Shown here: positions 31,892-37,717 of the stretch, piece by piece
Numbering within the stretch: the stretch's first letter is position 1
How the letters are laid out: the number at the start of each line of letters is the position of its first letter
Origin: Acetobacteraceae bacterium
GTDB taxonomy: Bacteria > Pseudomonadota > Alphaproteobacteria > Acetobacterales > Acetobacteraceae
Length of the DNA stretch: 64,000 nucleotides
Reading direction: 5' to 3'
NCBI GenBank assembly: GCA_027451405.1
Contig: DAIDJM010000014.1
Span: 1 to 64,000 of the forward strand
Notes under the pieces: generated by a model
Seen by the model: the letters and a program-made list of their open reading frames with translations, nothing else
What the model was told of the DNA's origin: nothing
Database searches by the model: none
Translations under genes and position numbers: made by a program

Positions 31892-31951
31892 GGCTGACCC
31901 TTTGCAGGATGGATCCGTGCTGCGGGCGCTAATTGGCGCGGTCCGCGGCTC

Positions 31952-33592
31952 TTGCAAAGACCCAATTGCGATTCCGTGGCACGGAAATCTCGGCGCTTGG
32001 TGCAGGAAGCAAGTTGTGGCAACCTTTGGTTGAAACACGGAGCCCGCCATCTGAGCGAGTTCGCCCCCTGGAACCTGCCCGAGCGCGCCCCGCCTTTCGG
32101 CGAGTTTCTGGCGCATGCCTGGGCGCGCCGCTGGCGCGGCGTCTGGATCTTCGCTTCCGTGTTCCTGCCGCTAGCCCTGGTCTCTGCCTGGCTTGCGCCC
32201 GCCTATCGCGCCACCGCGACACTCGCCGTCCTGCCGGCCCCGGAATTCACCGTGCGGCCGGATGCGGGCTCGAAGGACCAGAACGAGAGCGCGCTGGCGA
32301 TGGACCAGATCATGAAAGCCGAAACCGAGATCCTGGGCAGCGAGGCGCTGCATGCCCAGACGATCCGGGCCGTGGGACTGTCGACGCTCTATCCCGATCT
32401 GGCGCAGCCGGGGCGGTCGTGGTTGCGCCAGGCGCTGCGCTGGATCGTCAGTCCTTGGCTCGGGCCGGCGCTGTCCGGCCGCGAGCGCATGGAAGCGCGG
32501 GCGCTCGCGCGGTTCGACGCCCGGCTCAGGGTGCGGGCGACCAAGGACAGCAACGTGATCGAACTCGGCTTCGACGACGAGGATCCGGCGCTCGCGGCGC
32601 GAGCGCTCGGGGATTTGCTCGAAGGCTATGCGTCGGCGCGCAGCCGGCTCTATGACGATCCCCAGGCGCGGGTGGTGCGGCACGAGACCGAACGCGCCGC
32701 GGCGGAAGCCCGCGCGGCCGGGCAGCGGCTGGCGGCCTTCAAGGCGGCCAACGCGATTGCCGATCTGGACCAGCAGCGCGGACTGCTGCTCAAGCGGCTC
32801 AGCGATGCGCGACAGGCGCTCGCCGACGCGCGGACGGCCGAGGCTTCACAGGCAGCGCGGCTCGCCGCGCTCGGGGCGGCAATCCGGCAAACGCCGCCTT
32901 CGGTCGGGCTCTATCGCGAACAGGACACCGACGAGCGGCTACAGACGCTGGATGACGGGCTCGTGGCGCTGCGAGGCGAGCTGGCCGCGGCGCGCGTGCA
33001 TTACCGGGACACGAGCCGGCGGGTGACGGATATTGAGGGACAGATCGCGGCTCGCGAAGCGGAGCGGGCGCGCCTCGCGGCCGATCCGACCCCGTCGGTT
33101 GCGCGCGATGGCCGCGCGCCCGATCTCGACGCGCTGCAGCTCGACCGCGCGCAAGCCGAGAGCGACCGGGTGGCGGCAGCGAGCCGGGCCGCCTCTCTCG
33201 CGCAGCAGGTGGCCGCGCTGCGGGGCGAGGTCGCGACATTGACCGAAAAGGAGACCGCCCTGCACGATCTGGAGCGCGGACGGGCGATCGCCGAAGAAAA
33301 CTGGCGGACCGCGACGCGCGTCCTGGCCGAGCGGCGGCTGACCGAAGCCGAGGACGCCCTGCGCCTCGCGAATGTGCGGGTGATCGAGCCGGCGCGCGCG
33401 CCGGACCGACCGACGCTTCTGAAACCGCTGCTGCTGCTGGCGGGAGGACTGCTTGGCGCGGTCGCAGCGGCGGCCGCGCTGCTCTGGGAATTTCTGGCGA
33501 GGCCCACCTTCCTTACCGAAGCGGGCCTGGCGGAAGCGACGGGGCTGCCCGTGCTGGGGGTGTTCCGGGTGGCTGCGGAGGCCGAGGCTTGA
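31952..33592 (+). CDS. Wzz/GumC-like polysaccharide chain-length determinant
   Basis: An inner-membrane polysaccharide co-polymerase. It has a first membrane helix (VWIFASVFLPLALVSAWL) near the N-terminus, then the Wzz motif ATATLAVLPAPEF, a long alpha-helical coiled-coil region rich in Ala and Glu (about residues 230-470), and a second membrane helix (LLLLAGGLLGAVAAAAAL) near the C-terminus. No kinase domain is attached. It would set chain length and act with the separate kinase-like gene of this locus. The start is uncertain: TTG 31952, GTG 32000 and TTG 32030 are possible, and the family-like part begins near SEFAPWNLPERAPP. Confidence 0.85.
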   Translation: MQRPNCDSVARKSRRLVQEASCGNLWLKHGARHLSEFAPWNLPERAPPFGEFLAHAWARRWRGVWIFASVFLPLALVSAWLAPAYRATATLAVLPAPEFTVRPDAGSKDQNESALAMDQIMKAETEILGSEALHAQTIRAVGLSTLYPDLAQPGRSWLRQALRWIVSPWLGPALSGRERMEARALARFDARLRVRATKDSNVIELGFDDEDPALAARALGDLLEGYASARSRLYDDPQARVVRHETERAAAEARAAGQRLAAFKAANAIADLDQQRGLLLKRLSDARQALADARTAEASQAARLAALGAAIRQTPPSVGLYREQDTDERLQTLDDGLVALRGELAAARVHYRDTSRRVTDIEGQIAAREAERARLAADPTPSVARDGRAPDLDALQLDRAQAESDRVAAASRAASLAQQVAALRGEVATLTEKETALHDLERGRAIAEENWRTATRVLAERRLTEAEDALRLANVRVIEPARAPDRPTLLKPLLLLAGGLLGAVAAAAALLWEFLARPTFLTEAGLAEATGLPVLGVFRVAAEAEA

Positions 33593-33634: not shown

Positions 33635-34387
33635 CTACGGCGCGAGGGCGCTGCCGCGGACGAGGTCGCGCAGCACCGCGCCCGGGACGGCAACCAGGTC
33701 CCGGGCGTAGCGGAGACCGAGGCGGCGCGGCTCGCGGCGGAGACGCCAGAGCCATTCGAGGCCGAGCCGGCTGATCCGGGCGGGGGCGCGTTCGGCGAGC
33801 CCGAGTTCGACGCGGACCGCCTGGCCGACGCAGATTGCCCAGCATGGCGGAAGCACCGCGCGATGGCGGTGGAGAAAGATCTCGCTGACCGGGGCACCGA
33901 GCGTCATGACCAGCAGATCGGGCCGAAAGGCGCCGATCCTCGCAAGCAGATGACGCGACGCGGCTTGATCGAGCCGTAAATCGGGGGGCGCGATTTCCAC
34001 GGTCGCGATCAGCCCCTTCTCCCGCGCCCAGGCCTGGATGACGGCGGCCGAGATCAGGCTTTCCGCGACGAAAAACAACCGGCGGGCCCGGAGCGCCGGA
34101 TGTCGCGCCAGCCCGCGGAACAGGTCGCAGCCGGTGACGCGCCCGGGCAGGTCGAGGCCGCGCAGGGCGGCGTAGAGCAGGATGGGAAATCCGTCGACGC
34201 AAATGAGCGAGGCCGCCCCGTAGGCCGCGGCGAATTCCGGGTCGCGCAGGAGTCGCACATGATCGAGGTTGGGGGTCACCAGCAGCGAGAACGCGGTGGG
34301 TGGCGGGTCGAGGAGCAGCCGGCGCACCACCTCCGCCGTGGTGAGGGGCGCGGGCGCGAAGCCGAAGATCTGGTGCGGCTCGCTCAT
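33635..34387 (-). CDS. WecB/TagA/CpsF family glycosyltransferase
   Basis: A 250-residue GT26-family transferase, probably adding a sugar to a lipid-linked polysaccharide precursor. The family blocks are TPNLDHVRLLRDP, DGFPIL (usually DGxG), RVTGCDLF, and the C-terminal SRLGLEWLWRLRREPRR which anchors the enzyme to the membrane. It is the last gene of the minus-strand polysaccharide operon, overlapping the polymerase-like gene by 4 bases (ATGA), and converges on the Wzz-like gene. Confidence 0.92.
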   Translation of the reverse strand: MSEPHQIFGFAPAPLTTAEVVRRLLLDPPPTAFSLLVTPNLDHVRLLRDPEFAAAYGAASLICVDGFPILLYAALRGLDLPGRVTGCDLFRGLARHPALRARRLFFVAESLISAAVIQAWAREKGLIATVEIAPPDLRLDQAASRHLLARIGAFRPDLLVMTLGAPVSEIFLHRHRAVLPPCWAICVGQAVRVELGLAERAPARISRLGLEWLWRLRREPRRLGLRYARDLVAVPGAVLRDLVRGSALAP

Positions 34388-35637
34388 GCGCGGCGCAGCA
34401 CGGCGGCGGCCGCGACGAAGAGGAGAAGCAGCGGCGATTTGCGGCCGAGCGAATTGCTCGTCGAGATGGTCACCAGAAAGCTCGCGACGAGCAACGGGGC
34501 GCCGGGACCCCGGCGCCAGGCCCAGGCCATGAGTGAGGCGAAGCCCGCCGCGAACAGGGTGAAGCCGAAGAGTCCGAGGGTCGCGAACATCAGCAGCGCG
34601 AAATTTTCGATCACGCCGATGCCGCGATCGAGGCGGAGCGTCTCAAGATGGTCGAGCAAATCGGGCCGTGGCGCCCCGAACAGCCATTCGCTCGGATCGA
34701 AATCGAGCAGGATCCGCCACTCATCGAGCCGGGTCGAGGCGCTGGCATCCCAGACACCGTGGGCGATCAGCCGGTGGCCGATCCCGGCCGCGAGCAAAAG
34801 CGGCAGCGCGGCGGTGGCGAGCCCGAGGACACCCGTGGCCGCGAGCAGCCGCCAGCCGGAGAGACGGCGGCGGCGAAAGCTTTTGGCAAGCCGCGCAGCA
34901 AGCATGGCGGCGGCCACGAGAGCCGCGGCGAGCAAAGCGGCGCGGCCACCGAAGGCGATCAGACCGCCGGTGAGCAACGCCAGGTAAGCCCAACGGGTCC
35001 AACCGCCGGCCGGGGCGAGAAAGAGCCCGATCAGGGTCGCGGCGGCGCCGGTCAAGGGATGGTCGTAAAGCGCGAGCGGGCGGAAATCGGCCGCGAGTTC
35101 GGCGGCCTCCTGGCCGTTCAGATAGAGGGGCAGCAGGTGTGCGCCCGCGAACGCTTCGGCCAGCGCGAGCGCCGCGTTGGCGGCGAAGCCCGCTTGCAGC
35201 AGCGTGCGAAGCCGCAGGCGGGCGTGGTCGCCGGCTTCGGCGACCGCGATGCCAAGGCAGCCGGCAGGCAGAAAATTGTCGAGCAATACGATGAGGTTGC
35301 TGGTGCCGGTGAACAGGAGGGCGAAACCGGCGCAACCGGTCATGGCGGCCAGGAAAAAGGTGAGGCGGCGCTGGCGCCAGAGCCAGTCGGCGGCGTCGCC
35401 GTGTGCGGCGTGATCGAACCAGGCCAGTCCAGCCGCGAGATAGGCGAGATACGCGGCGGGGTGCAGTTTCTCGAGCAGCGTGCCGCCCTCGGAAACGTAG
35501 GCACTGCCGGCCAGCGTGAGCAGGTTGGCACCGACCAGGAGCGCCAGCGCGACCGCGGCGATGGCGGCAGCGTCGCCGCCGCGCCACGCACGTCCGCCGG
35601 AGGACGAAGCCGCGAATGGCGCGGCGGCCGCGGTCAC
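34384..35637 (-). CDS. VpsF/O-antigen-polymerase-like membrane protein
   Basis: A 417-residue polytopic membrane protein with 10-12 hydrophobic segments. The segments AYLAYLAAGLAWFDHA, a central FRPLALYDHPLTGAAATLIGLFL with DHPL, and STRLDEWRILLDF in the large loop near residue 300 recall VpsF-type and Wzy-like polysaccharide polymerases. The GTG at 35637 overlaps the upstream gene stop by 4 bases (GTGA), which fixes the start. Function is inferred from fold and operon context; it would join repeat units in the periplasm. Confidence 0.75.
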   Translation of the reverse strand: MTAAAAPFAASSSGGRAWRGGDAAAIAAVALALLVGANLLTLAGSAYVSEGGTLLEKLHPAAYLAYLAAGLAWFDHAAHGDAADWLWRQRRLTFFLAAMTGCAGFALLFTGTSNLIVLLDNFLPAGCLGIAVAEAGDHARLRLRTLLQAGFAANAALALAEAFAGAHLLPLYLNGQEAAELAADFRPLALYDHPLTGAAATLIGLFLAPAGGWTRWAYLALLTGGLIAFGGRAALLAAALVAAAMLAARLAKSFRRRRLSGWRLLAATGVLGLATAALPLLLAAGIGHRLIAHGVWDASASTRLDEWRILLDFDPSEWLFGAPRPDLLDHLETLRLDRGIGVIENFALLMFATLGLFGFTLFAAGFASLMAWAWRRGPGAPLLVASFLVTISTSNSLGRKSPLLLLFVAAAAVLRRA

Positions 35638-36272
35638 GCGCGGCCGGTCCTGACCAGTACGGTGCCGGCGAGTCGGCCGCCGGCGCCCACGATCATGCGG
35701 GCCGCGGTCTCGATCGACGCGAGCCGGGTGCGAAAGGCGGCCACGAGAAGAAGGGTGCCGCTCGCTAGCGGCGCGAGCGCCAGTGCCGCGGCACTGGCGC
35801 CCGGCGCCGCGCAATCGATCACGACGAGCCGGAAGGCATGGGAGGTTGCCTCGAGCTGCGCCGCGAACGGTTGCTCCGGTGCATGACGGTCGAACAGACC
35901 GCACGCGAAGCGGGCATGGTGGAGGGCCGGAACGAAAGGATCGCGCTCGGTCGGCAGCCGGGGATCGGCATCCTGGGGAAGCGGGGCGGAATCGGCGAAC
36001 CCGGCCTCGATGCGCAGCGTGCGGCCGAGCCGGGTCGCCCCAGCCAGCGCGAGGCCGAGCGCGATTTGTGGCGCGGCCTCCTGCGCGAGACAGGGCAAAA
36101 CCAGCACGACCGGCGTGCCGGCGACGCCGGTGCGCGCCAGCACCTGGTCCAGCAGCGCCTCAAAATCGCCGCTTCCCGAGCGGGCGGTCGCGCCATCGAT
36201 GCGGGCGCGTGGCGGGGCGGCCCGGGCCTCGCCGGCGAGAGGTGGCTCGAGGCTCCAGAGCGCGGCGCTCAA
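35634..36272 (-). CDS. CpsD/Wzc-like kinase relative lacking the P-loop
   Basis: A 212-residue protein that resembles the ATPase domain of bacterial tyrosine autokinases used in polysaccharide export. The late blocks match: RLVVIDCAAPGASAAALALA is the usual Walker B/switch stretch and VGAGGRLAGTVLVRTGR resembles the family C-terminus. Where Walker A (…GKS/T) is expected the protein reads VLPCLAQEAAPQIA with no Gly-Lys-Ser/Thr, so ATP binding and kinase activity are unlikely. There is no Tyr-rich tail. It starts at TTG 36272, overlapping the sugar transferase stop (TTGA). Confidence 0.62.
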   Translation of the reverse strand: MSAALWSLEPPLAGEARAAPPRARIDGATARSGSGDFEALLDQVLARTGVAGTPVVLVLPCLAQEAAPQIALGLALAGATRLGRTLRIEAGFADSAPLPQDADPRLPTERDPFVPALHHARFACGLFDRHAPEQPFAAQLEATSHAFRLVVIDCAAPGASAAALALAPLASGTLLLVAAFRTRLASIETAARMIVGAGGRLAGTVLVRTGRA

Positions 36273-37717
36273 TAGGCGTTCCGGCGCGAGAGGACCCGCA
36301 GCGGCGTCATGGCCACGATCCGCAGGTCGAACAGCAGCGACCAATGATCGATGTAGTAGAGATCGTGCTCGATCCGGGCGCGCAGATGAGCCGGATCGGT
36401 GGCAGCGCCCCGCCATCCATTGACCTGGGCCCAGCCGGTCATGCCGGGTTTGACCCGCTGGCGCCGGGCATATTCGGCCACCATCGCGAGACCCGCCCGT
36501 TCGCCGACATGGAGGCTGTCAGCGTGGGGCCGGGGGCCCACGAGCGACATGTCGCCGCGTAGCACGTTCCAGAGCTGGGGCAGCTCGTCGAGGCTCGCAC
36601 TGCGCAGGAAGCCGCCGACGCGGGTGAGCCGTGCATCGCGCCGCGCGGTCTGGCGCCGCGCCGACTCCTCGCCCGGCGCATGTTTCATCGTGCGAAACTT
36701 GTAGATGGTGAAGCTGCGTCCGCCCCAGCCGGTGCGGCGCTGCGGGAAGATCACCGGACCCGGCGAATCGAGCCCGATCAGCAGTGCGACCGCGGCCAGG
36801 AGCGGCGCGAACAGGAAGAGCAGCGCGGCCGCGCCGCTGCGGTCCAGCACCCCTTTGAGCAGCAGCTGCCAGCGCTTGCGCGGACGATCGGAGAGGATTG
36901 CCAACGGCACGCCGGAGAGGCTGCGCAATCCGGCCGGCGCATCGGACAAGCCATGCAGATCGGCCGAAAGCGCCACCTGAACCGGCATCGGTTGCAGACA
37001 TTCGAGGATCGGTGCGAGCGCCTCCGGATCTCCGGCGTTGGCCAGCACCACCGTGTCGATCCCACCCGCCTGCGCGAGACCGAGCATCTCCGCGATGGCG
37101 GGGGAGACCGGGTCCGCTTTCGCGCGCGCGAGGCCGCAATCGACCACCCGGATCACGTCGACCTCGGGGCCGAGGCGCGAAGCCAGCGGACCCGCCGTCC
37201 CCGCCATGCCAATCACCGCCACCGTCTCGCGGGCCCGCCCGTCGCGCTGCAGCCGGCGTGCGGCCCACACATAGAGCAGACGACCGGCGAACACCCAGAC
37301 CGCGAAGCCGGCGAACCAGCCTGCGAGCCAGAGCCGCGCCATGTCGGCAAGCGCGCCACTGGCCCAGCCTGCGGCCAGCAGCACCAGTGCGGATGCCGCC
37401 AAACGGCGGGTCAGCATCGCCAGCAGCGGTCCGGTGCGGAGCAGCGCCGGCTCGGTGGCGAGCCGCGCCTCGCGGAGCAGCAGCGCGGCGATCACGCTCG
37501 ACATGACCATTTCGTGCAGCATCGCCGGCGATGGCGAACCGGACGGTCCACCGCAGCAGCCGAAGTGCCGATAAGCGAGTTCCGCCGCATAGCCGATCGC
37601 GAAACCGGCGCAGCCATCCCAGAGCAGGAACAGATCGTTGAGGTAGAGAAGCACGTCGCGCGCACGCCGCGGCACGGGGCGCCGTCTGTCCTGCGCGGAG
37701 CAGGCTGAGGAGTGCAT
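36269..37717 (-). CDS. priming sugar transferase (polyprenyl glycosylphosphotransferase)
   Basis: It moves a hexose-1-phosphate onto undecaprenyl phosphate, starting exopolysaccharide repeat units. It has 482 residues: N-terminal membrane segments (near 20-180), a CoA-binding-like domain, then the bacterial sugar transferase domain with KRWQLLLKGVLDR, PVIFPQRRTGWGGR, FTIYKFRTMKH, SLDELPQLWNVLRGDMSLVGPRP, and KPGMTGWAQVNGWRG, all the usual catalytic and lipid-binding motifs. It is the first gene of the minus-strand polysaccharide operon, its promoter lying in the 143-base gap before prfB. Confidence 0.94.
   Translation of the reverse strand: MHSSACSAQDRRRPVPRRARDVLLYLNDLFLLWDGCAGFAIGYAAELAYRHFGCCGGPSGSPSPAMLHEMVMSSVIAALLLREARLATEPALLRTGPLLAMLTRRLAASALVLLAAGWASGALADMARLWLAGWFAGFAVWVFAGRLLYVWAARRLQRDGRARETVAVIGMAGTAGPLASRLGPEVDVIRVVDCGLARAKADPVSPAIAEMLGLAQAGGIDTVVLANAGDPEALAPILECLQPMPVQVALSADLHGLSDAPAGLRSLSGVPLAILSDRPRKRWQLLLKGVLDRSGAAALLFLFAPLLAAVALLIGLDSPGPVIFPQRRTGWGGRSFTIYKFRTMKHAPGEESARRQTARRDARLTRVGGFLRSASLDELPQLWNVLRGDMSLVGPRPHADSLHVGERAGLAMVAEYARRQRVKPGMTGWAQVNGWRGAATDPAHLRARIEHDLYYIDHWSLLFDLRIVAMTPLRVLSRRNAY

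Follow-up and report, generated by a model that had tools for sequence, protein, structure and literature searches.

A stand-alone BY-kinase relative without lysine or tyrosine, a candidate pseudokinase scaffold in an Acetobacteraceae exopolysaccharide operon

Described pseudokinase pairs and the protein in this genome

A third subfamily of type 2 polysaccharide co-polymerases (PCP-2) has been proposed, in which a PCP-2 without a kinase domain is paired with a stand-alone bacterial tyrosine kinase (BY-kinase) relative, a pseudokinase, that serves as a scaffold (PMC12004946). The sections of that paper drawn on here describe EcpK/EpsV of Myxococcus xanthus, add HfsB/HfsA as a second instance and name Acidiphilium multivorum among the organisms with further such pairs; EcpK is termed a pseudokinase also in the consulted part of a later paper (PMC12802240). 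Here we analysed a 64,000-nucleotide stretch from an Acetobacteraceae bacterium (GCA_027451405.1, contig DAIDJM010000014.1, positions 1 to 64,000 of the forward strand; hereafter the window), in which an exopolysaccharide (EPS) operon carries a 212-amino-acid BY-kinase relative (35634..36272, minus strand). With a probability of about 0.75, this protein is a stand-alone BY pseudokinase that works as a phosphorylation-independent scaffold for a PCP-2.

The active-site features of BY-kinases are largely missing from the window protein. In alignments, residues 60-69 read PCLAQEAAPQ (36066..36095, minus strand) where canonical proteins have their Walker A loop, SALPxEGK(S/T). None of the 212 residues is a lysine and none is a tyrosine, and therefore a shifted Walker lysine or an unusual tyrosine site is excluded; the initial annotation of this DNA had correctly described a CpsD/Wzc-like gene without GK(S/T) at Walker A and without a tyrosine tail. 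Its statement that the late ATPase motifs are kept holds in part: a Walker B-like remnant with an aspartate aligns at residues 150-157 (VVIDCAAP, 35802..35825, minus strand), whereas the Walker A' aspartate is gone, the site reading RIEAGFAD with a glycine at the column of the second acidic residue of DxDxR. The Walker B aspartate is itself not conserved, its place being taken by E, Q and E in three orthologues. Alignment also identifies residues 116-121 (ALHHAR, 35910..35927, minus strand) as a segment, L-[YH]-H, common to the four closest orthologues, the window protein included. No Pfam model matched the kinase relative up to an E-value of 1, and NCBIfam models of polysaccharide tyrosine kinases matched weakly over its C-terminal third (EpsG, 7.3e-4).

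The window protein is predicted to keep the BY-kinase fold. Structure prediction, which the initial annotation had put forward as a check, returned this fold in an AlphaFold2 model (predicted local distance difference test 75.9, predicted template modelling score 0.76; residues 1-33 and 128-133 under 50) from an alignment of seven rows, three of them canonical BY-kinases, which may favour such an outcome. The top structural match of the model is Wzc (3la6_A, Z 20.9, root-mean-square deviation 2.8 over 204 residues); CapAB, Etk, BceF and VpsO match at Z 18.0-20.6, MinD/Soj come next at 13.7, and the best Foldseek value is 5.6e-9. A profile of eight stand-alone proteins without the Walker A lysine (the window's included) matched the solved structures of VpsO (2.9e-17) and CapAB (about 3e-11), with PslE chains also among the matches, and, with an E-value limit of 0.1, the tyrosine autokinase model TIGR01007 matched seven of the eight proteins, the best of them at 7.4e-15.

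Like EcpK/EpsV, the locus combines a stand-alone BY fold lacking Walker A, Walker A' and a tail tyrosine with a PCP-2 partner without a kinase domain and Wzx/Wzy-type EPS genes; EcpK differs in belonging to another phylum, in its Lys/Arg-rich C-terminal helix and in having no Walker B, whereas the window protein has a short C-terminus and a Walker B-like aspartate (PMC12004946). A requirement for EPS and binding to PCP-2 have been shown for EcpK, whereas the window protein is known from its sequence and predicted fold (PMC12004946). HfsB/HfsA of the Caulobacter holdfast pathway likewise pairs a stand-alone pseudokinase with a separate PCP-2, in a different gene cluster, and in A. multivorum such a stand-alone pair has been named; both were compared by description (PMC12004946). 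The active kinases Wzc, CapB and VpsO resemble the window protein in fold and by a weak sequence profile match, but they have Walker A, A' and B and a Tyr-rich tail, whereas the window protein has neither Walker A, nor the A' aspartate, nor the tail (PMC12004946). Because the locus shows the testable features of the EcpK/HfsB kind and lacks defining features of active BY-kinases, it is a member of that published kind.

Conservation and the wider BY-kinase-like family

The operon was sought through its Wzy protein; at a threshold of 1e-20, matches were obtained in 8 of 249 family genomes, one of them that of the window. With the window pseudokinase alone as the query, no relative was found in the contig collection searched. 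The same order of transferase, kinase relative, Wzy and WecG occurs in G201, G071 and G098 (by exact protein match, contigs PKZM01000135.1, CALMVI010000037.1 and CAJCIS010000151.1, respectively), and a convergent PCP-2 is also present in G201 and G098. G176 and G111 have the same five parts on one strand in a different order, G114 has all parts but Wzy in the examined stretch, and in G085 Wzy and a kinase relative are seen on a short contig. The contig CAJCIS010000151.1 (L147) is titled 'Acidobacteria bacterium', yet its genome, G098, is placed in the window's family and has the syntenic operon; the title looks wrong.

The Walker A lysine is absent from all seven relatives (G201, G071, G098, G176, G111, G114, G085), and thus none of them has the normal P-loop that, according to the initial annotation, would have meant local decay. 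The Walker A region of the three close orthologues reads SLGDAGAGRV, AGPTGPGTQM and GCIVTKQPSMV, the lysine of the last being off the Walker position, where a proline stands, and the four further relatives have GAGTS, GAGTT, GTGAS and GEGTT. From these sequences it looks as if the P-loop wore away stepwise, losing the lysine first and then the glycines. All three close orthologues likewise begin in a TTGA overlap with the gene of the transferase, which supports the TTG start at 36272, and 27 alignment columns are invariant among the four orthologues, window included. Identity of the pseudokinase to the three orthologues is 34, 29 and 41% over 160-205 aligned residues, and that of the other four genes is 38-57%.

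Ninety-six BY-kinase-like domains were surveyed. The sample is non-random, consisting of profile matches in 100 family genomes and of loci from other searches, with a profile built from six lysine-less and two canonical domains. At most 30 candidates were scored per genome, and mainly the high-scoring and stand-alone ones among the matches listed were taken; once duplicates and domains scoring below 40 bits had been discarded, 98 were left, and the partial L063 and L066 were then removed. The 96 include four domains that do not belong to the family's genomes (L004, L148-L150); the C24 domain of the window genome (lysine-less, no tail) was among those discarded and is in neither the counts nor the tree. 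With the tail taken as the residues past the profile match (the first 60 where there are over 100), tyrosine is found there in 69/69 domains with the Walker A lysine vs 2/27 without (P = 4.7e-21, Fisher's test uncorrected for relatedness). Two or more tyrosines lie in the last 40 residues of 67/69 and 2/27 domains, respectively, and at least one in 68/69 and 13/27. The Walker A' aspartate is present in 68 of the 69 lysine-bearing domains and in 7 of the 27 lysine-less ones. Helix alpha2 of the window protein reads DFEALLDQVLAR and is without the EX2RX2R motif, which belongs to the octamer interface of BY-kinases according to the consulted part of PMC3795738. Its loss was dropped as a strong sign of a pseudokinase, since the loose pattern E..[RK]..R fails in 42 of the 69 lysine-bearing domains too and so discriminates weakly.

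In a quick tree without the Walker A columns (seven rows have long branches), the window protein and its three orthologues form a four-row clade with a Shimodaira-Hasegawa-like approximate likelihood ratio test (SH-aLRT) value of 98, nested in a 20-row lysine-less clade (SH-aLRT 93, not starred) that holds stand-alone and fused forms. Other lysine-less domains lie outside the 20-row clade, some of them among canonical ones. The lysine-less rows need at least five changes on this tree, and the starred branches force two; together with the scatter outside the clade, these changes suggest that the Walker A lysine was probably lost more than once. Both lysine-bearing and lysine-less domains occur within one genome in G002, G006, G081 and G098. 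L036, drawn as fused on the tree, appears stand-alone beside a PCP gene; it is one of three lysine-less BY-kinase-like domains of G085 (L036, L061:2379-3083, L074:1640-2347), apparently all stand-alone, two of which share a contig beside a PCP gene. A separate clade (SH-aLRT 100) is formed by L067, L068, L073 and L075, BY-kinases of the family in open frames of 266-517 amino acids, with GEGK(S/T) kept and tyrosine in the tail, which we guess to be of the XrtA type.

Neighbouring genes and the search for an active kinase

Four minus-strand genes lie in the order phosphoglycosyltransferase, kinase relative, VpsF-type Wzy and WecG-type transferase. The first encodes a polyprenyl-phosphate hexose-1-phosphate transferase of the WcaJ/EPS_sugtrans type (36269..37717, 482 amino acids; TIGR03025, 340.9 bits with a cut-off of 295.55; PF02397, 204 bits), whose stop is overlapped by the pseudokinase start. 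The third is a VpsF-family Wzy-type polymerase (34384..35637, 417 amino acids; NF038256, 200.9 bits, above the curated cut-off of 150) and the fourth a WecG/TagA/CpsF-type glycosyltransferase (33635..34387, 250 amino acids; PF03808, 112.5 bits). The four-base overlaps that the initial annotation reported for all internal junctions are exact at 3/3 (TTGA 36269-36272, GTGA 35634-35637, ATGA 34384-34387), but its locus of 34384-37717 comprises the first three genes, and the WecG-like gene lies beyond its end. Plus-strand open reading frames on the same bases (34648-35886, 35783-36562) were rejected because the relatives keep the minus-strand frame as protein. Some 7.6 kb away from the operon lies the gene of an OafA-like membrane acyltransferase (PF01757; 24937-26025, minus strand), which might decorate a polysaccharide.

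The PCP-2 (Wzz-like) chain-length protein is convergent with the operon (31952..33592, plus strand) and has no kinase domain, as had been noted of a Wzz-like partner on the other strand, although the gene lies outside the coordinates then given. Its open frame begins at 31898, and the start codon at 31952 is provisional. The XrtA-type chain-length profile TIGR03007 matches at 92.1 bits, far under its curated cut-off of 278.85, and the GNVR and Wzz Pfam models match below cut-off only. Two hydrophobic stretches lie near residues 63 and 493, and the protein ends about 35 residues after the second. These C-terminal 35 residues (33485..33589, plus strand; the first residue chosen by eye) are predicted to be a cytoplasmic extension and are the proposed docking segment of the pseudokinase; their pattern RP.F.T..GL...TG.PVL is common to the convergent PCP-2 of G201 and G098.

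The assembly searched for a kinase elsewhere has 67 contigs and is 97.66% complete, so that a kinase gene may be missed. TIGR01007 gave eight matches over the genome, none above cut-off, and the survey profile gave ten at E up to 10, three of which are the BY-kinase-like domains of PCP-2 systems: the window gene, C54 and C24. At E 0.01, the PCP-2 genes detected by the chain-length profile are confined to those of these three systems; the Wzz model recovers C54 and gives a weak match to C24. The domains are fused in C54 (L152, open frame of 718 amino acids) and C24 (L153, 723 amino acids), with GPRGRSARAQ and GGRDVRYASD at the P-loop place and no tyrosine tail. A canonical Walker A with a tyrosine tail of the BY-kinase type was shown by none of the profile searches of this assembly, and the initial suggestion of a kinase elsewhere is not borne out by the three PCP-2-linked domains that they did find, all without the lysine and the tail. 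The remaining matches whose motifs were read are Soj/ParA-, Mrp-, CpaE- and BchL/NifH-like by those motifs, and the weakest (C9, C33, C40 and C61) reached 13.1 bits or less on profile rescoring. L023:994-2292 (C46 of the window genome) has the P-loop GVCGGVGATTI without the usual lysine and is CpaE/TadZ-like.

The low-molecular-weight tyrosine phosphatase model PF01451 had no match in the genome, nor had PF19567, a model that detects only 1 of 14 controls. Since PF01451 is missing at E 1e-4 in 37 of 100 family genomes (the window's counted) and PF19567 is insensitive, the absence of a phosphatase was dropped as support for a kinase-free state.

Somewhat short of even odds, in our judgement, is a wider claim, that all three PCP-2 systems (window, C54 and C24) rely on non-phosphorylating BY-kinase-like domains and that BY-type tyrosine phosphorylation has been given up. 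In the window clade the domain would then have been reduced to binding alone, with L-[YH]-H as a new conserved segment of its own and with translational coupling to the initiating transferase.

Proposed role and alternative explanations

The pseudokinase keeps the predicted BY fold without the usual parts for ATP binding and hydrolysis and with no tyrosine to phosphorylate. Under the scaffold reading, it would most likely bind the convergent PCP-2 at the latter's short C-terminal segment in the cytoplasm and act as a scaffold for the PCP-2 oligomer. Wzy-dependent chain growth and export would be set by binding and release, not by a phosphorylation cycle, with a possible effect on chain length. 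The option, raised early, that chain length is controlled with no cycle of tyrosine phosphorylation is supported, the scaffold role being suggested by analogy with the published relatives.

Several points weigh against this reading. We infer the contact with PCP-2, and the gene is translationally coupled to that of the phosphoglycosyltransferase, not to PCP-2. Nothing comparable to the basic C-terminal helix of EcpK is present in the window protein, and no PCP match was found within the 18 kb examined in G071. At least one tyrosine persists in the last 40 residues of the 13 lysine-less domains counted above, and none in the window protein. Moreover, no compared gene has a lower identity than the pseudokinase in G201 or G071, and in G098 it also ranks close to the bottom, with Wzy below it at 38%; therefore constraint on the pseudokinase looks looser.

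It is improbable, but the best placed of the alternatives, that the pseudokinase serves the phosphoglycosyltransferase or Wzy and not PCP-2, for instance by offering them a platform for assembly in the cytoplasm. Its start overlaps the transferase gene in four genomes and the PCP-2 sits on the other strand, as such a role would have it; nevertheless, Wzc, CapB, EcpK and HfsB, as far as the consulted parts of the literature go, all work with a PCP-2, the PCP-2 here keeps its C-terminal extension, and in the family a lysine-less domain is fused to a PCP (L009) or its gene overlaps a PCP gene (L003, L005). Still less credit is given to local decay, that is, to a recently inactivated, functionless BY-kinase heading for loss. 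Four divergent genomes, the window's among them, have retained the open frame, the operon place and the TTGA start overlap, the lysine is lacking in 4/4 orthologues and in the wider clade, and the invariant alignment columns likewise speak against decay, which would account for the wholly lost glycine-rich loop and for the lowest identity in two of three relatives. Least likely of all is that an active BY-kinase encoded elsewhere serves the PCP-2 with the window protein as its adaptor or modulator, for although four genomes carry both domain kinds and the consulted part of the Staphylococcus aureus CapB1 paper (PMC3795738) discusses an active kinase that has an inactive partner, the profile searches gave no canonical domain, both other PCP-2 fusions are degenerate, and a low-molecular-weight tyrosine phosphatase was not matched, as in many genomes of the family.

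What is mildly new in the locus, read as a scaffold pseudokinase and its PCP-2, is the completeness of the active-site loss, together with the fact that all three systems of one genome seem kinase-free. In the open-licence literature, no paper on a BY pseudokinase group in Acetobacteraceae was found beyond the mention of Acidiphilium, which we take to be a member of this family. In the current model, PCP-2 proteins work via tyrosine phosphorylation cycles, and the published pseudokinase pairs of M. xanthus and Caulobacter call that model into question for individual pathways. In the window protein the loss extends to zero lysines and tyrosines; several genomes retain the gene, and the searches of the window genome turned up no active partner. 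That the Walker A lysine and the tyrosine tail are lost together may help annotators to separate pseudokinases from kinases in this family, and the clade offers a natural test of the need for phosphorylation in chain-length control.

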